This document shows positions 3,750 to 19,797 of a stretch of 20,320 nt of DNA, in pieces. The stretch comes from a virus. Made by a program: the position numbers and the translations under genes. The stretch lies in the IMG/VR virus record IMGVR_UViG_3300030060_004514, positions 1 to 20,320 of that record. One strand, given 5' to 3'. How positions within the stretch are numbered: the first letter of the stretch is position 1; every line of letters starts with the position of its first letter. Below the pieces are notes generated by a model. It saw only the letters and a list, made by a program, of their open reading frames with translations. It did no database searches and had not been told where the DNA came from.

Positions 3750-6167
3750 TTAGCTAGGTCCCATTGCACCTAGATTAAATCCACCTTCAAGTATATCATT
3801 ACCGGCAGACTCAAAGTTTTTAGGTGGTCTACCTGATTTTCTTTGATCTATCATCTCTGATTGTTGAGTGGCTTGTATTTTTGTTCTTTTGTCTTTACGA
3901 TCTTCTTTTTCTTTTTCTCTTTGTTGTAATCCATCAGTTTCAACTTGCTTTAACTGCATATTATACTGAAACTCTAGTTGCATTAACTCTTTTTTAAGAT
4001 CAACTTCTTGTTGCATTTTTTGAGCATCAAGTTGCGCTTGCATTTGAGCTAGCTGCATTTTGCTTTGATTTAAAGCTTGATTTTTTTGCACTTCTACTTG
4101 AGCAGCTTGTTGAGAAGCTTGAGCGTTAGCTTGTGATTGTGCTTGTATGTTTTCTCTTTGAAGTCTTCTATCATTAGCTTGTTTTTTCTTTCTTCTAATT
4201 TTTAAAACTTCATTAGCTAGCTTTACATTTTTAATGTTTCTAATATCAATAGCATCTTCAAGCTCTATAGTCTGCTGTTGCAGTGCCATTTGTATATTGT
4301 TTTCTAACCTTTGTTTTTCTTCTTCATCTGGAGATAGCTCTATAAATATACCAAAGTCATACAAGTGTAGTTCTGATATTTCTTCTAATGTAGCAACATT
4401 ATGAACACCTAACGCGTGAACAAAAGCATCTTTAGTTGGCGAGTATTCTAATACATCAGATATTCTAAGTGACAAGCACTCTGCTAGCTCTGCAGTTAAA
4501 AATAAACCAGACTGTAATATATGTCTTGTAGCAGTATTACTATTAGCAGCTGCTATTTTTTGTATACCTACTAAAGCGTTTTTATCTGGCATGCTACCAT
4601 CACGAGCCTCGTTAAGCCCGGTGACGTCACGTATCATTTGCATGTAATAATTGTAGTTTGCTATCAAAGCTTGTATCTTGTTGCCACCAGATCCTGACGT
4701 AATTTCTTGTATAGGCACTTTACCTGGATTCATATCACCCTCAGAAGTAAATGATCTACCAATAACACTACCTGTTTGGAAGAACATGTTTAAAGCTTCT
4801 TGCGGATTATAGTTTGTTCCGTTACCTAAATCTATTTCAGCTAAACCATCAGCGTCAAGATAAACGCCATCTGGCACCATACGCGACATTACTTGTTGCA
4901 GCTTTAAATGCGTGAGTTGTATCATATCAGCAAAACCAGTAATACGCTTAACAAGAGAGTCTATTCTATTATTATACATCCTTGGCGCAACAATACTATA
5001 ATTCATTTTAACTTTAGTATAGTCGCTTTTAGGCCTAATCATATTTTTACAAAGCTCCCAACGCAAAAGTTTTTTAGTACCAAGTATAATAGCTCCATCA
5101 TATAAAACCTCTATAGCTCTTTGTAGTCTAGTAAAACCTTCTTGTTTTTCTTCTGGTGGATTAAAAGTATCATCTTTTTCAATAGCTTTTTCCCCTCCAG
5201 CTAGTGTTTCTTTAATCTTATAAACATGATTCATATAAGTTTTATAATTAAAATATAAAACTTGAATTTTGTTATTATCTTCTTTTTGTTGATTATAACT
5301 ATTGTAAGAGTTACTTCTATATACTCCTTGGGACTGTTTTATTTCTTCTAAATCTTCTTCTGTTAAATGTGGAAATTGTTTAGCCAGCTCGTTAAAAGGT
5401 ATTTGTTTTACTTCACCAACATAATATATATCGTCAAAATATGGTGAGTCAGTATACGAATATACTAAATTGGCAGGATCAACATAATCTATTGTTATAC
5501 CTTCTGAAGTTGTAAAGTTATTTTTAACAGCTCCAATACCTAATACAGCTAAATCGTAATAAAATCTTTTTTTAGTAAGTTCATATTTGTTACCTTCCAT
5601 AAGCATGCGTATCGCTTGCTCTTGAGCAATTTCTACGTTTTGCTTATAATTTAACTGCATGTGTATACCTAGTTCTTCAAGATTTTCAGGTAATTCTTTT
5701 TCATCGCTTTCCGTCATATCAACACCAAGCTCTGCTTGAACTAAATCGTTTAAATCTTTAAACTCCATATCAGACATTATAGCCTCCATGTATTCAGTTC
5801 TTTTATCAACACCGTTTTGTGATTGTGAAAAAGCTTTTATATCATAAGTTCTTTCAGCTATTCCATTAACTACAATATCAACAAACTTAGGTATTATTGG
5901 TACAGGTGTCCAATCTAAATTTAAATAACTTAAATCACCATTAATAGAAAGCTCGTCTTTATATTTTTGTACGCCTTGCTCTCCTCTAGCATATAATCTT
6001 AAACTATGAAACTCATCATAGTTAGATCTATATTTATTTCTATAATTGTTTTCGTCATAAAACCACTCAGCCTCTATAGCTTTAGCAACTTTGAGACCAT
6101 ATTCGTAGCTAATTTTTTCAGCATCACTAACTACTTGACTTGGAAAATATCTATTAGTGTAAGCCAT
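3750..6167 (-). CDS. Portal protein (805 aa)
   Basis: This large protein sits between the terminase and scaffold genes and is the expected portal, the dodecameric ring at the capsid vertex through which DNA enters and leaves. Its order fits portals of the larger marine and crAss-like type: an N-terminal region with YRSNYDEFHSLRLYARGEQG (about residues 44-63), a segment PKFVDIVVNGIAER, a long helical centre, and a C-terminal tail. The tail, about residues 640-790, is a very Gln/Lys/Glu-rich coiled coil (repeated Q-A-Q, QQ and KE runs). It ends in a short Gly-rich piece, GGFNLGAMGPS. The length is above that of classical lambdoid portals because of this tail. The gene starts 1 nt after the terminase stop codon. 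Position and size carry most of the weight; no catalytic motif is expected. Confidence 0.85.
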   Translation of the reverse strand: MAYTNRYFPSQVVSDAEKISYEYGLKVAKAIEAEWFYDENNYRNKYRSNYDEFHSLRLYARGEQGVQKYKDELSINGDLSYLNLDWTPVPIIPKFVDIVVNGIAERTYDIKAFSQSQNGVDKRTEYMEAIMSDMEFKDLNDLVQAELGVDMTESDEKELPENLEELGIHMQLNYKQNVEIAQEQAIRMLMEGNKYELTKKRFYYDLAVLGIGAVKNNFTTSEGITIDYVDPANLVYSYTDSPYFDDIYYVGEVKQIPFNELAKQFPHLTEEDLEEIKQSQGVYRSNSYNSYNQQKEDNNKIQVLYFNYKTYMNHVYKIKETLAGGEKAIEKDDTFNPPEEKQEGFTRLQRAIEVLYDGAIILGTKKLLRWELCKNMIRPKSDYTKVKMNYSIVAPRMYNNRIDSLVKRITGFADMIQLTHLKLQQVMSRMVPDGVYLDADGLAEIDLGNGTNYNPQEALNMFFQTGSVIGRSFTSEGDMNPGKVPIQEITSGSGGNKIQALIANYNYYMQMIRDVTGLNEARDGSMPDKNALVGIQKIAAANSNTATRHILQSGLFLTAELAECLSLRISDVLEYSPTKDAFVHALGVHNVATLEEISELHLYDFGIFIELSPDEEEKQRLENNIQMALQQQTIELEDAIDIRNIKNVKLANEVLKIRRKKKQANDRRLQRENIQAQSQANAQASQQAAQVEVQKNQALNQSKMQLAQMQAQLDAQKMQQEVDLKKELMQLEFQYNMQLKQVETDGLQQREKEKEDRKDKRTKIQATQQSEMIDQRKSGRPPKNFESAGNDILEGGFNLGAMGPS

Positions 6168-10814: not shown

Positions 10815-11237
10815 TTATTTTTCTTTTGATTGTTCGTTTTTCTTTGATGATCCTCCGAAGAAGAAGTCTATAATTGTATTTACTTTAGCACTCATAGCGC
10901 CAAATATTGTAGAGATGAAACTAATTTCAAACTCTCCTAGTTCTATTGATTTTGTAACAAAGTAATTAAACATTACAAATGTAATACCAAAGTATGCTAC
11001 AGTAAATAACGTTGCTAATACTTTTTGAATAATAGCATCGTCTTTATACATATCACGCGCAGACTTACGATCTTCTACTTCTTTAGCAAAAGCTTCACGC
11101 TCTGCGTCTAGTAATAGTTTTTTAAGAGCTAGCTTTGCTTCGTCTCTTTCTTTGTCTGTGGTAATTACTTTATCAAGGATGCCTTCTGCATTATCAACGA
11201 TCTTACCGAATAAGCCTCCAACTAAATTATTTATCAT
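10815..11237 (-). CDS. Holin (3TM gene-transfer-agent/phage type)
   Basis: The layout fits the GTA/3TM holin family, which makes membrane lesions at lysis. It has an amphipathic N-terminal helix (about 1-22), a charged helical stretch (28-66) including EVEDRKSARDMYKDD, hydrophobic segments at about 72-94 and 103-128, and a short basic tail after FFFGGSSKK. That FFFGxSS-lysine ending and the R-SAR-MYK segment are typical of the family as I remember it. At 140 residues the size is normal. It starts in an ATGA overlap with the upstream HEXXH gene, making a possible lysis pair. No signal peptide or lytic enzyme domain is present. Confidence 0.8.
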   Translation of the reverse strand: MINNLVGGLFGKIVDNAEGILDKVITTDKERDEAKLALKKLLLDAEREAFAKEVEDRKSARDMYKDDAIIQKVLATLFTVAYFGITFVMFNYFVTKSIELGEFEISFISTIFGAMSAKVNTIIDFFFGGSSKKNEQSKEK

Positions 11238-11629
11238 ATCTTATTGTTTTCCCAAGGTAACCGTCTGTCTCCTTCAACAAGTCTTTCACCTGTTTTAGGA
11301 TTAGTAACATAACCATTGCTACGCTTCCAAACTTCACCTTTATAATATACAGCTTCATCATCATAGTACTCAGTACCTAACTTCATAGCTGTTATGTGTT
11401 GCATTTCATGAGCTAAAGCTTGTTGAAACATTGGATCTTCTATATTTATATCTTTATCAATATAAATACTTCCATCGTAGTTTGCTTCAGCTATAACATC
11501 TTTACCTAGCTGTTTTCTAAACACGGGCGTTCCAGGTACTATTTCATCTCCTGATTTAAAACTAAGCTTGCTTTTAACTACACCGTTATTAGCTTCAAAT
11601 TTATTTTTTTTACTTAGTTTAAACGCCAT
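11234..11629 (-). CDS. HEXXH zinc metalloprotease-like protein (131 aa)
   Basis: The key feature is HEMQH at residues 74-78 in a predicted helix (QALAHEMQHITAM), the HEXXH signature that in zinc metallopeptidases supplies two zinc-binding His and the catalytic Glu. A candidate third ligand lies shortly after, in YYDDEAVYYKG (residues 88-98). The middle has GTPVFRK and a strand GSIYIDK before the helix, as in small minimal metalloproteases of phages. The N-terminus MAFKLSKK matches other small proteins in this operon. The gene overlaps the holin start by ATGA and shares a TAATG junction with the gene before it. A lysis or virion-processing role is possible; activity and substrate are not shown. 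Confidence 0.65.
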   Translation of the reverse strand: MAFKLSKKNKFEANNGVVKSKLSFKSGDEIVPGTPVFRKQLGKDVIAEANYDGSIYIDKDINIEDPMFQQALAHEMQHITAMKLGTEYYDDEAVYYKGEVWKRSNGYVTNPKTGERLVEGDRRLPWENNKI

Positions 11630-15691: not shown

Positions 15692-16006
15692 TTACTTTTT
15701 GTGGCCCATCTTCATAGCAGCTTTCATCATTGTAGCCGCTTTCTTAAGCTTCATAGCAGATTCTTTTTTCATCTTCATACCTGCCTTCTTCATTTTCATA
15801 GCTGCATCTTTTGCTTTCTTCATTTTCATAGCAGCAGCTTTTTTCATTTTCATAGCAGCGTCTTTTTCTTTTTTAAGCTTCATAGCAGCAGCTTTCTTCA
15901 TCATTTTTGGGCTTTTACCTTCTTTCTTTTCTTTTGCAATAATTGCTTTTTGTAAGTTTTCAGGTAAAGTCTTTTGTTTTGCCGTAATTTTCTTTGGACT
16001 TTTCAT
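15692..16006 (-). CDS. Lys/Met/Ala-rich repeat protein (104 aa)
   Basis: From about residue 35 to the end, the protein consists of imperfect 8-14-residue repeats built from AAMKMKKA and AAMKLKKEKD units. It contains many lysines and methionines and almost no acidic residues. I place the start at 16006 (MKSPKKITAKQK), just after the stop of the PAP2 gene; an upstream in-frame ATG at 16045 would add 13 residues and overlap that gene. Such histone H1-like tails bind DNA without sequence preference, so DNA compaction in the capsid is a reasonable guess. The repeat in the DNA can recombine, which may explain length variation among relatives. Function not shown. Confidence 0.7.
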   Translation of the reverse strand: MKSPKKITAKQKTLPENLQKAIIAKEKKEGKSPKMMKKAAAMKLKKEKDAAMKMKKAAAMKMKKAKDAAMKMKKAGMKMKKESAMKLKKAATMMKAAMKMGHKK

Positions 16007-16007
16007 T

Positions 16008-16556
16008 TTAAATTTTGTTTTTAATATGTTTAAACATTGCATCACCTATTTTCTCGCCAAACTTACTGTCTGACTTATAATGAGCGTGAGCTACTCTTCT
16101 ACTATAAGATATGTTTTCTGCTGTTTTCTTAAAAGCTTTAGAAGCTTTGGGATGTTTATCAGCTAAAACATTACCTATTAATATTCCTTGAACAGAGTGA
16201 CCTGATGGATACGAAGGAGTTTTCATAGACTTCATTTCGTAATCTTTCATGCTAATATTCATTTTCTTAGCAGATACTTTAGGTCTTGGCCTGTTAAAGT
16301 GTTTCTTCAGTTTTAATATTACAGGCGCAGAGTCTTTTATTAACTTTGTAGCTATACTTTTGTCGTAGTCTTCTATATTGTTTTCCTCTGCTGTCTTTTT
16401 AAAAGCAGCTTCAATATCATCGTACTTTTTTACAAACTCTTTTTTAAGCGGTATGCTTTTAAGCTCTTTAACCTCTTGCATAGTTCTAAAAGAATTATCA
16501 CTAGGTGGTTTTTGCTTTTTAAAGCTAGATATATTAAAATCTTTAAACAAACTCAT
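16008..16556 (-). CDS. PAP2-superfamily acid phosphatase (182 aa)
   Basis: The three active-site blocks of the PAP2 family are complete and correctly ordered: K82-x6-R89-P90 (KLKKHFNRP), PSGH at 117-120, and S152-R153-x5-H159-x3-D163 (SRRVAHAHYKSD). H159 is expected to be the phosphate-accepting nucleophile and H120 the acid/base, as in bacterial class A acid phosphatases and vanadium haloperoxidases. No signal peptide or membrane segment is visible, unlike lipid phosphatases, so a soluble enzyme acting on small phosphate esters is more likely. It lies among the small basic proteins, with an ATGA overlap to the gene upstream, and may be packaged or act on nucleotides late in infection. The substrate is unknown. 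Confidence 0.9.
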   Translation of the reverse strand: MSLFKDFNISSFKKQKPPSDNSFRTMQEVKELKSIPLKKEFVKKYDDIEAAFKKTAEENNIEDYDKSIATKLIKDSAPVILKLKKHFNRPRPKVSAKKMNISMKDYEMKSMKTPSYPSGHSVQGILIGNVLADKHPKASKAFKKTAENISYSRRVAHAHYKSDSKFGEKIGDAMFKHIKNKI

Positions 16557-16837
16557 TTTTCACCGCATTTCTTACTAGGATTACCAACTTGCACCCAGTT
16601 TTCTTTTTGGAACCAATCACGTAATGTAGCACCTTTTTTACGAGCACCTTTTACATTACTCTTACTTGATCTTCTATAACCACCGCTTTTAGCTGCTTTA
16701 CGTTTAGCTCTAACGACAGATGCGCGCTCAGACTTAGACATGCTACGAACTTTAGCTGCGGGTAAACAAACTTTCTTTGTACCTCCACCTTTTATCTTAG
16801 ACTTTTTAGCTAACGGTGATTTTAGTTTAAATGCCAT
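16553..16837 (-). CDS. Small basic phage protein with DUF5872-like ending (94 aa)
   Basis: A strongly basic protein (many Lys, Arg, Ser) with two recognisable parts: VCLPAAKVRSMSKSERASVV near residues 23-42, and a C-terminal GATLRDWFQKENWVQVGNP segment. I recall this combination from small proteins of marine phages and large DNA viruses, similar to the DUF5872 type (GGY... then a L-x-x-W-x-x-x-x-W ending), with no known function. The start MAFKLKSPL is shared with other genes of this cluster. It sits between TAATG and ATGA junctions, so it is translated with its neighbours. DNA binding is likely from charge, but not proven. Confidence 0.65.
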   Translation of the reverse strand: MAFKLKSPLAKKSKIKGGGTKKVCLPAAKVRSMSKSERASVVRAKRKAAKSGGYRRSSKSNVKGARKKGATLRDWFQKENWVQVGNPSKKCGEK

Positions 16838-17292
16838 TATTTCTTTTTTAATCTTCTTATAGCAGCTTTACATCTTTTAGCAATACCTGCTTGTTGAGGT
16901 TTTTTACCAAATCGTGATCTTTGCTCCATAACTGTTAATATCTGTATTTTTCTAGCGTATGGCTTACTAATACGTTTTACTTTAGCGCAAGTACTTCTAG
17001 CGTCTGCTGGAGTAGCATATTTAATCCTAACTGTATCTTTAGGATTTTCGTCAGTATATAATCTTCTGCTGCTACCTTTAGGTTTTTTGCCAGTACCAAC
17101 AACTGGGTCTTTACGTTTCTTTTTTGGTGATGGCCTGTTAGTTTGCATGTTTATAAACCAGTTTGCTAATTGCTTATCACGAGGCGTAGCATCTTTTCTA
17201 GATTTTAGTTTTCTAGCTTTAGCTATTGTTACATCTCCGCCGTATAGTTTAGATATACGAGCTTTTAATACACCTCTGTAAGCTTTACTCAT
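16837..17292 (-). CDS. Basic phage protein with DUF5824-like domain (151 aa)
   Basis: Residues 1-70 are a Lys/Arg-rich arm containing ATPRDKQLANWFINMQ. Residues about 73-128 match the DUF5824 pattern as I remember it: GSSRRLYTDENPKDTVRIK, then YATPADARSTCAKVK, then ARKIQILTVMEQRS. The family is found in phages and giant viruses, and no activity is known. The tail is again very basic. ATGA overlap upstream and TAATG downstream make it part of a translationally coupled series. A nucleic-acid-binding virion protein is the most likely role. Confidence 0.7.
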   Translation of the reverse strand: MSKAYRGVLKARISKLYGGDVTIAKARKLKSRKDATPRDKQLANWFINMQTNRPSPKKKRKDPVVGTGKKPKGSSRRLYTDENPKDTVRIKYATPADARSTCAKVKRISKPYARKIQILTVMEQRSRFGKKPQQAGIAKRCKAAIRRLKKK

Positions 17293-17561
17293 TTTTTCTT
17301 TTTACCTAATCTTTTTCTTACGATGTCCATAGTTCTACGCATTTTAGCCGCGTACTTTGGATCTTTGTTTCTTCTAAATACTATTTGTTGATTTAAACTA
17401 CTAATAATTTTAGATAAATTACCTTTACGCGACTTAATCATCCAACTAGCTAAAGCAGGTGCAGATAAATCTCTAAACTTACCTTTAGCATCAGGCGCAT
17501 CAGATTCTTGAAACTTACCCATACGTTTAAGTAAGGCACTATTTTTTAATTTAAAAGCCAT
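17289..17561 (-). CDS. Small basic phage protein, function unknown (90 aa)
   Basis: Begins MAFKLKNSALLKRMGKF, the recurring start of this cluster, followed by a helical protein with SAPALASWMIKSRKGNLSKI and a C-terminal RRTMDIVRKRLGKKKK. It is basic throughout. Similar small proteins with the MRRTMxxVRKRL helix are familiar to me from marine phages, with no assigned function. It shares a TAATG with the 41-aa gene upstream and an ATGA with the gene downstream. DNA binding or packaging is inferred from charge and position. Confidence 0.65.
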   Translation of the reverse strand: MAFKLKNSALLKRMGKFQESDAPDAKGKFRDLSAPALASWMIKSRKGNLSKIISSLNQQIVFRRNKDPKYAAKMRRTMDIVRKRLGKKKK

Positions 17562-17686
17562 TATTTCTTTTTTCTTCTAGGCACACAGTTTGGAACCATT
17601 CGATTACCTTTTTTCTTCATACCTTTTTGTACGTGTGATTTCCAGCATGCTTTCAAAGGTGATTTTATTTTCATTTTAAAAGCCAT
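17561..17686 (-). CDS. Very small basic protein (41 aa)
   Basis: A 41-codon frame begins MAFKMKIKSPLKACWKS and ends PNCVPRRKKK. It fills the space between two neighbours exactly: its start overlaps the stop of the 54-aa gene and its stop overlaps the next start, both as TAATG. That fit, the shared MAFK start, and the same charge bias as the neighbours support a real gene despite the short length. Two Cys and one Trp may give it a small structured core. The function is unknown; it is probably nucleic-acid or virion associated. Confidence 0.6.
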   Translation of the reverse strand: MAFKMKIKSPLKACWKSHVQKGMKKKGNRMVPNCVPRRKKK

Positions 17687-17850
17687 TACTTCTTTTTCTT
17701 TTTACCACCACCAAATCTACTAGGACCACCGGCTCTAGTGCATCGTACACCCCAGCCAGAGGCGTAAGCTGAAGGCCATACTTTAAATTTACGTTTTGCA
17801 GCAGCTTTACAAGCAGCAGATATTTTCTTTAATGCTGAACTTTTTTTCAT
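17686..17850 (-). CDS. Very small basic protein with WPSAYASG motif (54 aa)
   Basis: A 54-codon frame encodes a lysine-rich start (MKKSSALKKISAACK), then KFKVWPSAYASGWGVRC, then a Gly-rich, lysine-ending tail. The WPSAYASG block is one I recognise from small proteins of phages and giant DNA viruses, often within basic proteins, with unknown function. The stop overlaps the next gene's start as TAATG, and the start lies 10 nt below the 134-aa gene's stop. Its conserved block and tight fit support a real gene. Confidence 0.65.
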   Translation of the reverse strand: MKKSSALKKISAACKAAAKRKFKVWPSAYASGWGVRCTRAGGPSRFGGGKKKKK

Positions 17851-17860
17851 GTTATATATT

Positions 17861-18265
17861 TTAGCAGTTCCATCTGCGTCTAGCAGCTAAACCTCGTTTA
17901 CTTTTCCAACTTCTTGATCTTGCGCAGAACGACTTTCTACGTTTTGCGGCTTTACTACCTTTTTTAAGCCTTGACGGCGGTGTTGTTACCGCTGTTTTTA
18001 GCTTACTACCTGGATTTTTACGTCTATATTCGCGTACACCTTTCTCTGTCATACCACCACCTGCTTTACCACCGGTGCCAGTTGACTTAGCTTTGTTAAA
18101 ATTCTTGCCAGGACCTATAGTTCTACGCACATCTGGCTTGCGTTTACGCTTTTGCATCGGGCTTTCTTCTTCCATTAAACGTTTTGGCGTCGATGTTGTT
18201 TGAAAGCTACGACGTCTACCACAGCTAGTAACAGAAAATGGATGATTTTTTTGTACGTATGCCAT
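17861..18265 (-). CDS. Basic phage protein with DUF6321-like C-terminus (134 aa)
   Basis: The protein is highly basic. Residues 1-60 are disordered-looking. From about residue 68 to the end it matches the DUF6321 pattern as I remember it: GGMTEKGVREYRRKNPGSKL, a turn with TTPPSRLKKGS, then KRRKSFCARS and the terminal block RRRWNC. The two Cys (114 and 134) are in the usual places. The family is common in phages and no activity is known. The gene shares a TAATG junction with the 78-aa gene before it. A role in binding or compacting phage DNA is plausible from charge alone. Confidence 0.7.
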   Translation of the reverse strand: MAYVQKNHPFSVTSCGRRRSFQTTSTPKRLMEEESPMQKRKRKPDVRRTIGPGKNFNKAKSTGTGGKAGGGMTEKGVREYRRKNPGSKLKTAVTTPPSRLKKGSKAAKRRKSFCARSRSWKSKRGLAARRRWNC

Positions 18266-18501
18266 TATTTTTCTTTTTTAGTGCCTTTTCCGTCATTACC
18301 ACGGTTGTCTTTAACAGACTTAAACTTACGATCTTTGTGATCGAAGTCTTTACCACTGATATTTATACCAGCTTTCATTGCAGCACGTCTTTTTCGTTGA
18401 TTTTCGGCTTTTTTCCTACGTCTAGCAGGCGTCATCGCAGCTTTTTTATCACGATTAGCTTTCATGCGCGCAGCAGTAGGTGTTAATTTTTGCTTTGCCA
18501 T
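18265..18501 (-). CDS. First gene of late block; small very basic protein (78 aa)
   Basis: About a third of its residues are Lys or Arg, concentrated in residues 1-42 (ARMKANRDKKAAMTPARRRK). A less basic second half (GINISGKDFDHKDRKFKSV) ends in NRGNDGKGTKKEK. I recall similar proteins, with the D-H-K and N-R-G-N-x-G-K-G-T blocks, beside DUF6321-type genes in marine phages. As the gene nearest the divergent intergenic region, it is the first of the minus-strand late operon as seen here. The function is unknown; a nucleoid-like DNA-binding protein is likely. Confidence 0.65.
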   Translation of the reverse strand: MAKQKLTPTAARMKANRDKKAAMTPARRRKKAENQRKRRAAMKAGINISGKDFDHKDRKFKSVKDNRGNDGKGTKKEK

Positions 18502-18786
18502 AAGAATATTATCACATAGTAGTAAAAATAGTTAAAAGTGTGACAATAGCTTGTTACTAATACACCTTAATAGGCTTATGTCATATAAAATACGTTATAA
18601 ATATAGGAGTAGAGTGTAGCCCCTACCTCCCTGGTAGCCAGCCAGTTACAAAAATCGTTTATAAATACCCCACCGGCCCCCGTTTTTGCCGTTTTGCGTC
18701 AGATTTTTTACGTTTTACTTGCAATATAAATACGAAACTATTTGGATAATATATATAAATAAATACTAATAATTAAATAATAAAAT
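18502..18786. promoter_or_regulatory. Divergent intergenic region with GC-rich island
   Basis: This stretch without genes separates the two opposed transcription units and must hold at least the rightward promoter (described separately) and probably a leftward one. About 18617-18704 is much richer in G and C than anything around it, with C-rich runs on the plus strand (G-runs on the minus strand, at about 18668-18681 and 18619-18631). CTACC at 18623-18627 can pair with GGTAG at 18633-18637 around a 5-nt loop. The octamer TATAAATA occurs at 18596, 18660 and 18725, 64 and 65 nt apart. A replication origin, a structured RNA or a regulator site are all possible; I cannot tell which. Confidence 0.5.
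18728..18760 (+). promoter_or_regulatory. Repeated phage promoter-like element, copy 1
   Basis: AAATACG, 8 nt of free sequence, then TGGATAATATATAT. The second part looks like an extended -10 element (TG-N-ATAAT-like), and the first lies where an activator or sigma contact would be, roughly -28 to -22. It is followed by the first plus-strand small gene, whose ATG is at 18787. The same layout occurs twice more in this block with identical spacing. Confidence 0.65.
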
Positions 18787-18998: not shown

Positions 18999-19031
18999 AA
19001 ATACGGAATAAACTGGATAATATATATAAAT
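18999..19031 (+). promoter_or_regulatory. Repeated phage promoter-like element, copy 2
   Basis: AAATACG, 8 nt, then TGGATAATATATAT, identical to copy 1 in both blocks, in spacing, and in the ATAAATAAA that follows. The free 8 nt differ, which argues that the two blocks are under selection. It stands 37 nt before the ATG of the gene that carries the ribozyme. Confidence 0.7.
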
Positions 19032-19068: not shown

Positions 19069-19287
19069 ATGACTAAATTAACTAAAAAAAGATTTGTTAT
19101 CTCAAAATCTCTAATCGGAAAAAATGTAACTATTGAATTTACAACTAAAAAAGGTACTTTTGAATATAATCATGACGATGTATACTCAATCAATCAAGAA
19201 AGACTTGAGTCAATGGAGTGCTTCCAAAAATATGGTAACTACACTAACAGTAATAACTTACCAACATGGGCTCGCCTATCTGAGTAA
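19069..19287 (+). CDS. Small hypothetical early protein; 3' end overlaps a hammerhead ribozyme (72 aa)
   Basis: A 72-residue basic protein with KRFVISKSLIGKNVTIEF at the start, followed by a TKKGTFEYNHDDVYSINQE segment and a C-terminal NNLPTWARLSE. The alternating pattern suggests a small beta-rich domain. No family is recognised. The gene has promoter copy 2 upstream. Its last codon and its TAA stop lie in the 5' strand of stem I of the hammerhead ribozyme. I prefer this frame to the overlapping plus-strand frame 19133-19348 because its start follows the promoter and leader, and the other frame would run through the ribozyme core. Confidence 0.65.
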   Translation: MTKLTKKRFVISKSLIGKNVTIEFTTKKGTFEYNHDDVYSINQERLESMECFQKYGNYTNSNNLPTWARLSE

Positions 19288-19333
19288 TACTGATGAGACT
19301 TCAATAGTCGAAACTACTTCGGTAGTCTATTAC
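19284..19333 (+). ncRNA. Type I hammerhead self-cleaving ribozyme
   Basis: Every conserved part is present. Stem I: GTAATA (19284-19289) pairs with TATTAC (19328-19333), 6 bp, open end, hence type I. Core: CTGATGA (19290-19296). Stem II: GACT (19297-19300) with AGTC (19306-19309), loop TCAAT. Core: GAAA (19310-19313). Stem III: ACTAC (19313-19317, sharing the last A of the core) with GTAGT (19322-19326), closed by a TTCG loop, including the obligatory A15.1-U16.1 pair. The cleavage triplet is GTC, with C17 at 19327 and the cut between 19327 and 19328. All pairs are Watson-Crick. Cleavage should leave a 2',3'-cyclic phosphate upstream and a 5'-OH downstream. It overlaps the stop codon of the gene before it. 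Self-cleavage in cells is inferred, not shown. Confidence 0.93.
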
Positions 19334-19353
19334 AAATCAACTAATTAAATACT

Positions 19354-19464
19354 ATGTTACAATACATTTTAGAAATTATTACACACTTAACAATTATAGG
19401 TACAATTTGTTACCTGACAGAAAAATTCGTTATAAAGAAAGACAGTGAGTGCAATAACTCTTAA
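19354..19464 (+). CDS. Putative 36-residue membrane peptide
   Basis: A short open frame begins 26 nt after the ribozyme cut. The product is mainly hydrophobic from about residue 4 to 21 (YILEIITHLTIIGTICYL), one possible membrane helix, followed by a charged end (TEKFVIKKDSECNNS). Such single-pass peptides are frequent among early phage genes. The start is preceded by AATTAAATAC, like the 5' half of the promoter element, but no TGGATAAT follows. No homologue is recognised. The length makes the call uncertain; it fills a gap otherwise without a gene between 19288 and 19511. Confidence 0.45.
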   Translation: MLQYILEIITHLTIIGTICYLTEKFVIKKDSECNNS

Positions 19465-19766: not shown

Positions 19767-19797
19767 ATACGATGCTTGATGGATAATATACATGAAT
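19765..19797 (+). promoter_or_regulatory. Repeated phage promoter-like element, copy 3
   Basis: AAATACG, 8 nt, then TGGATAATATACATGAAT. It shares both blocks and the 8-nt spacing of copies 1 and 2 but differs in the trailing bases. It begins inside the stop codon of the 84-aa gene and lies 24 nt before the ATG of the next one. Confidence 0.65.

Follow-up and report, generated by a model that had tools for sequence, protein, structure and literature searches.

A type I hammerhead ribozyme at the stop codon of a small phage gene, and the elements that take its place in related phages

The stretch of DNA described here, which we refer to as the window, comprises the 20,320 bp of one IMG/VR virus record and comes from a marine bacterial virus. 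Its terminase is 63% identical to that of a Manatee Spring podovirus and 44% identical to that of a Flavobacterium Elemovirus, and further matches are to Cellulophaga, Tenacibaculum and Maribacter phages; judging from sequence, the host is likely a member of the Flavobacteriia. A DNA search with the early region found no match among the named phages. The element of interest lies between two small genes of a rightward, presumably early, operon, where the initial annotation had placed it. The upstream gene, gene A (P0001; 19069-19287, + strand), is located directly 5' of the element throughout the window's lineage and encodes a 72-aa protein that has no Pfam or PHROG match and no match in a protein search against named phages. 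The structure of this protein is predicted with confidence (pLDDT 91), and a structure search with the model found no match in the PDB or among viral structures. The downstream ORF (19354-19464, + strand) encodes a membrane-like protein of 36 aa.

A promoter-like motif, TGGATAATAT, is present upstream of gene A at 19014-19023 (+ strand). The same motif occurs at 18743-18752 and 19780-19789, in each case ahead of small rightward genes and with AATACG about 10 nt upstream, and the combination is likely the phage early promoter. No exact copy of TGGATAATAT is present between gene A and the 36-aa ORF. A 45-bp palindrome, GTGACA...TGTCAT, occupies 18538-18582 (+ strand), and relatives have this element behind gene A or behind the hammerhead. 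Other parts of these genomes have features of their own. For example, small proteins starting with MAFKLK or MAFKMK, most of them very basic, are encoded beside the structural genes of the window (11234-11629 and 15692-18501, - strand), and a conserved leader, CCAGTTAGTTTAGTGTTTACTGGTAAATCAAA, precedes small genes at about position 5810 of locus L127 and in L150, L160 and L164. This leader is possibly a small riboswitch or a regulatory hairpin.

The window contains a complete type I hammerhead ribozyme at 19284-19333 (+ strand), which confirms the central claim of the initial annotation; every base and pair was read in the sequence. From 5' to 3' it consists of one strand of stem I (GTAATA, 19284-19289), the catalytic core CTGATGA (C3-A9, 19290-19296), one strand of stem II (GACT, 19297-19300), loop II (UCAAU), the other strand of stem II (AGTC, 19306-19309), GAA (G12-A14, 19310-19312), one strand of stem III (ACTAC, 19313-19317), a UUCG loop (19318-19321), the other strand of stem III (GTAGT, 19322-19326), C17 (19327) and the closing strand of stem I (TATTAC, 19328-19333). 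The stems have 6, 4 and 5 bp, the last including the A15.1-U16.1 pair, and A15.1 also completes the core GAAA (19310-19313). All of the core bases and 15 of 15 pairs are present, with every position of the invariant core (C3 U4 G5 A6 N7 G8 A9, G12 A13 A14, A15.1-U16.1 and H17) as expected and with three stems around the core, stem I being the open one, as in the type I topology. The UUCG cap, the GUC triplet and the compactness pointed out earlier are likewise borne out in this 50-nt element. The stop codon of gene A (TAA, 19285-19287) is inside the 5' strand of stem I.

Hammerheads cleave themselves 3' of H17 and leave a 2',3'-cyclic phosphate and a 5'-OH. From the sequence and this established chemistry, cleavage of the window hammerhead is predicted between 19327 and 19328, and the downstream message would then carry a leader of 26 nt (19328-19353) that starts with the 3' strand of stem I.

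The minimum-free-energy structure of the 50-mer alone is the hammerhead (-8.0 kcal/mol). This energy is unremarkable (z -0.5), and therefore the case for the hammerhead rests on the core, the covariation and the context. When 60 nt of the gene A coding sequence are included, a fold other than the hammerhead becomes better by 4.3 kcal/mol, with 20 nt included a competing fold is ahead by 1.6 kcal/mol, and with gene A omitted there is no competitor. Consequently, misfolding may occur in the transcript unless it is averted by ribosomes or by folding during transcription, and ribosomes on gene A could influence the predicted cleavage. One explanation built on these results is that the hammerhead is a translation-coupled switch: ribosomes at the stop codon in stem I, or clearing the 3' end of gene A, would gate its folding, and cleavage would report translation. 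The location of the stop codon and the better folding in the window's lineage once the gene A tail is omitted agree with such a switch, as does the survey described below, where 58 of the 115 phage hammerheads with an upstream stop have this codon overlapping the core or stem I. However, the overlap may merely reflect tight packing, and the competing fold is not universal, as four loci (L017, L003, L087 and L132) show little or none. We regard the switch as unlikely.

The compensatory pairing expected of a type I hammerhead is found both in orthologues and in cultured phages. The unbiased set consists of 11 orthologous hammerheads that were chosen by a gene-A homologue upstream and a pattern of the core only. 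In these, 99.4% of the pair cells are paired, double-sided changes occur at nine of the 15 pairs, and covariation is 0.48, versus 0.15 for shuffled alignments and no more than 0.06 for slid structures. An alignment of 76 sequences has double-sided changes at 13 of the 15 pairs, although its rows had been chosen by pairing. The pairs of stem II covary, and the core CTGATGA is invariant in alignment A1 apart from N7. Cultured Flavobacterium Elemovirus phages carry related hammerheads and provide the clearest case: in one orthologous hammerhead elemoE has GACU/AGUC as stem II, whereas elemoB and elemoC have GGUU/AACC, a double compensatory change, and beyond this the core differs only at the free N7 (U or C). 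The elemoF phage has two mismatched pairs in stem II and is perhaps an intermediate or a recombinant. In L197 (MT497072.1) the hammerhead is at 3994-4055, and the public Elemovirus annotation has a hypothetical antisense ORF over it (3961-4068, - strand), which is probably spurious.

The initial annotation had proposed the Rfam type I model as a check and had named a score below the Rfam threshold as grounds against the assignment. RF00163 gives the window 23.9 bits where its gathering score is 34, so that by this measure the claim formally fails; yet the cut-off, which is curated and not a defining property of type I hammerheads, is uninformative here. The reason is that in 21 phage records, where our phage model reports about 79 hammerheads, most of them at 45-74 bits (a count that is not blind, as many of the records contributed to the model), RF00163 has 34 matches listed, 33 of them below the gathering score and one above. 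A test that 1 of about 79 passes is the wrong one, and the structure, the covariation and the position of the window hammerhead all agree with expectation. The Rfam type I cut-off is a blind spot for a large group of phage hammerheads, and hence the number of hammerheads in viral metagenomes is underestimated. A scan of the whole window against Rfam at E<=1 lists no hammerhead, since short models are lost to filters and to the size of the library; a scan of 131 nt does list it. RAGATH-1 (RF03152) shares CUGAUGAGACUU...CGAAAC with the window, but the 5' part of the model is missing from the window, and membership was rejected: the score is 25.6 bits against a gathering score of 56.3, with positions 26-77 only of the 77-position model matched.

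The phage model itself is a covariance model built from 68 phage hammerheads from which the window's lineage had been excluded. It gives the window hammerhead 67.1 bits (E 1.9e-15), and the runner-up in the window has 11.2 bits. The bare core is expected by chance 0.07 times per window. We also searched for the exact core together with stem II (CTGATGAGACTTN2-8AGTCGAAAC), with stems I and III unconstrained, and found it in at least 120 IMG/VR stretches, versus one contig among 84,980 species genomes. That contig (L122 449-2561; NHCX01000075.1, a Verrucomicrobia MAG) has three clear hammerheads inside 2 kb and a weak fourth, and is probably a phage contig. Outside the window, 91 of 92 unique exact-core sites form complete hammerheads (82 type I and nine type III); exchanging the flanks among sites lowers this share to 15%, and shuffling them lowers it to 3%. 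The type III hammerheads with this core are located upstream of phage genes (L008, L009, L041, L050, L052, L057, L066, L085 and L118).

The window group resembles the RF00163 hammerheads in its full core, GUC triplet, open stem I and closed stems II and III, and differs in having a stem I of exactly 6 bp with A-A flanks and a short loop II that begins with U. Among the phage type I hammerheads, an A is present 5' of the 6-bp stem I in 147 of 152 and A-A flanks in 133 of 152; the short, U-first loop II and the conserved A-A flank beyond stem I would be compatible with a tertiary contact between loop II and stem I of the kind that speeds cleavage in the cell.

Some phages have arrays of hammerheads, with 10 in genome G016, seven in G017 and six in G013. 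Arrays of 6-10 copies run along phage operons, often with about one per gene (e.g., L093 2813-7576 in G016, L031 and L067), and at three array loci there is no Rfam match at the gathering threshold. Stem I tends to be alike within a genome, with an identity of 0.73 versus 0.49 between genomes (12 sd from shuffles), and this likeness is absent for stem II and scarcely present for stem III. For example, one phage may share stem I among its hammerheads (L031, L017, L110, L070 and L080), as with GTTCAA/TTGAAC six times. The common stem I and the arrays of up to 10 copies would be consistent with circular RNA production, in which the cut ends are joined to each other, in one copy or across copies, as happens in retrozymes. 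However, the window's lineage has a single hammerhead per record, and thus no flanked unit to excise, and Perreault et al. (2011), who searched prophage arrays for products of this kind, did not find any (PMC3088659). A retrozyme-like unit needs two direct flanking copies of the hammerhead, which are lacking even in records of 66,408 and 55,322 bp. For the window's lineage circular RNA production was rejected on the single copy per record, and we consider it highly improbable.

The position of the hammerheads relative to genes was surveyed with 138 unique phage type I hammerheads that have enough flank, using random positions on the same strand as controls. The stop codon of an upstream ORF falls within -60 to +10 of the core in 115 of the 138, versus 17% of random positions, and in 100 of those 115 it is at -13 to +1. 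Only two of the 138 are inside an ORF, as compared with 44% of random positions. An ATG is present within 80 nt past the cut in 111 of the 138, mostly at 19-33 nt, whereas the value for random positions is 21%.

The last result, together with the 26-nt leader in the window, could mean that the hammerhead mainly serves the downstream gene, the mRNA of which would begin with a short 5'-OH leader produced by the cut. There is a precedent in haloviruses HF1/HF2, where a start codon comes 13 nt after the hammerhead and an mRNA 5' end was mapped near the cut (PMC3088659). Like the window, these are lytic phages with the hammerhead in the early region and the next start codon close by, and they differ in a variant core, a proposed salt response and a link to a downstream helicase gene (PMC3088659). 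In the window's lineage, however, it is the following gene that varies. Relatives with the hammerhead have unrelated ORFs after it that encode the 36-aa membrane-like protein or proteins of 55 aa (two kinds), 35-37 aa or 43 aa, and gene A is constant, which implies that the ribozyme goes with the upstream gene. In two loci (L129 and L160) the promoter-like TGGATAATAT (or CGGATAATAT) separates the hammerhead from the next gene, and so the hammerhead there can only concern the upstream message. Furthermore, the 45-bp palindrome follows the cut in L126-L128, L131, L132 and L138. A main role for the downstream gene is weakened by these observations and would seem doubtful.

Relatives of gene A are present at 75 viral loci, a profile search finds 128 members, and many genomes have two paralogs. 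The 83 distinct sequences downstream of the family show which elements occupy this slot: a hammerhead in 13, a tRNA-like element in 22, the 45-bp palindrome in 19, a GC hairpin with TGTATAGCA in 10, a promoter motif in four and something else or nothing in 15. As most relatives lack the hammerhead, it is not essential. The GC-rich hairpin is followed by one or two TGTATAGCA repeats in L130, L139, L141, L171 and L176.

The tRNA-like element (alignment A2, model R2) combines an acceptor-like stem, about 6 bp long, with a linker reminiscent of a D-loop (AAnGGTTAAT), a T-arm with the loop TTCGATT and a 3' tail ACTA; it has neither a D-stem nor an anticodon arm. Double changes occur at eight of its 10 pairs, covariation is 0.76 versus 0.19 shuffled, and neither ARAGORN nor Rfam reports it. 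These elements are located directly or shortly after the stop codons of gene-A paralogs (L128 6594-6636, L145 5228-5270, L077 8878-8921, L187 5286-5329 and others). In L128 a hammerhead follows paralog 1 and a tRNA-like element follows paralog 2, and the same division between paralogs is seen in L077 and its overlap L165. A different small RNA, tmRNA-like (GGGAGTGATAAGGTAA...TTCGA...CACTTCCACTA) and about 77-95 nt long, with no room for a tag reading frame, is present in L191/L192 (7600-7686), L185 (7556-7640) and L196 (7287-7363); in L191/L192 and L185 it is just 5' of tRNA-Met.

The palindrome (GTGACA-N-TGTCAC; GTGACAnnnGCCTnTTAC...TTAATAGGCnnATGTCAC) is 44-48 bp long and recurs at many loci (e.g., at about 5221 in L149 and about 5275 in L127), including after gene A. 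It directly follows the stop codon in L142 and many others, and in seven loci (L012, L020, L051, L062, L099, L131 and L132) a hammerhead separates the palindrome from the stop codon and looks like an insertion. The palindrome is also present in the divergent late/early operon region of many relatives, and it is absent from a consensus terminator scan of the window. A DNA site, a terminator and an RNase III hairpin are all candidates for its function.

On the gene tree, the identity of the slot element changes 26 times, as compared with 54 times when the labels are shuffled, and the well-supported branches force at least four gains or losses of the hammerhead; the tree is based on 74 columns and many of its forks are unsettled, so the exact counts are soft. 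Two of the forced changes involve L091 and L098, whose hammerheads are found in a part of the tree where the genes otherwise have the tRNA-like element behind them. The hammerhead has been gained or lost repeatedly behind gene A. This patchy presence, together with the small share of slots it occupies, would fit a neutral or selfish RNA module that is tolerated at gene ends and plays no role for the phage. Against this, the pairing is strongly maintained by double changes, the fit to the gene junction is precise, and the replacements are other structured RNA elements and not nothing. We think that such a module is quite unlikely.

The explanation that we favor, and hold to be probable, is that the hammerhead is an exchangeable device belonging to gene A, and not to the following gene, that cuts the early mRNA behind the stop codon. 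The ribozyme would cut the rightward transcript between C19327 and U19328, just behind gene A, whose message would then have the folded hammerhead at its 3' end, terminated by a 2',3'-cyclic phosphate; the downstream message would begin with a 5'-OH and its leader. In relatives the slot is filled by the hammerhead, the truncated tRNA-like element or the palindrome. RNase P accepts minihelices that consist of an acceptor stem and a T-arm, and the tRNA-like element is plausibly processed by the RNase P of the host. Because the slot elements swap and the gene stays, the task they share is most likely to give the gene A/B message its 3' end or to separate this message from the following sequence. 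Should the palindrome turn out to be a DNA-binding site, the slot would be less uniform than proposed here.

Hammerheads are already known from phages, as the initial annotation had stated. Perreault et al. (2011) reported them between genes in phages and prophages, some in clusters that flank genes, and proposed that they process long phage transcripts (PMC3088659); a triple array from A. tumefaciens cleaves in E. coli (PMC3088659). What differs from those phages is the fusion of the ribozyme to the stop codon of one conserved small gene, its presence or absence in orthologues, its exchange with tRNA-like elements and its occurrence in uncultured Flavobacterium-type phages. The theta ribozymes beside phage tRNAs are likewise self-cleaving RNAs used for RNA processing in Bacteroidota phages; however, they have an HDV-like fold and trim tRNA 3' trailers, and involve no hammerhead and no mRNA slot (PMC10879173). 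We found no report of a hammerhead/tRNA-like element exchange in phages, which is weak evidence, as subscription papers and bioRxiv were largely outside the search. A paper on Baltic Flavobacterium phages mentions neither ribozymes nor the elemo phages. As far as we have found, then, the stop-codon fusion to a conserved gene is new, as are the exchange with tRNA-like elements and palindromes, the compensatory evolution in cultured isolates and the Rfam blind spot.

Ever since their discovery it has been asked what use phages make of hammerheads, and this locus bears on the question. It offers natural controls, as one position behind one gene is occupied by a hammerhead in some genomes, by a tRNA-like element in others and by neither of them in the rest, and there are cultured relatives with a related ribozyme. 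Should the exchange with the tRNA-like element hold up, self-cleavage and the RNase P of the host are interchangeable means by which phages cut their messages. More tentatively, we suggest that Flavobacterium-type phages may have an exchangeable RNA-processing slot, fused to the stop codon in a family of small, conserved early genes, in which a hammerhead, a truncated tRNA-like RNase P substrate and a palindromic element for processing or termination interchange for one job. If this is true, phages would have two alternatives for punctuating their mRNA, namely the tRNA processing of the host and catalysis by a ribozyme.
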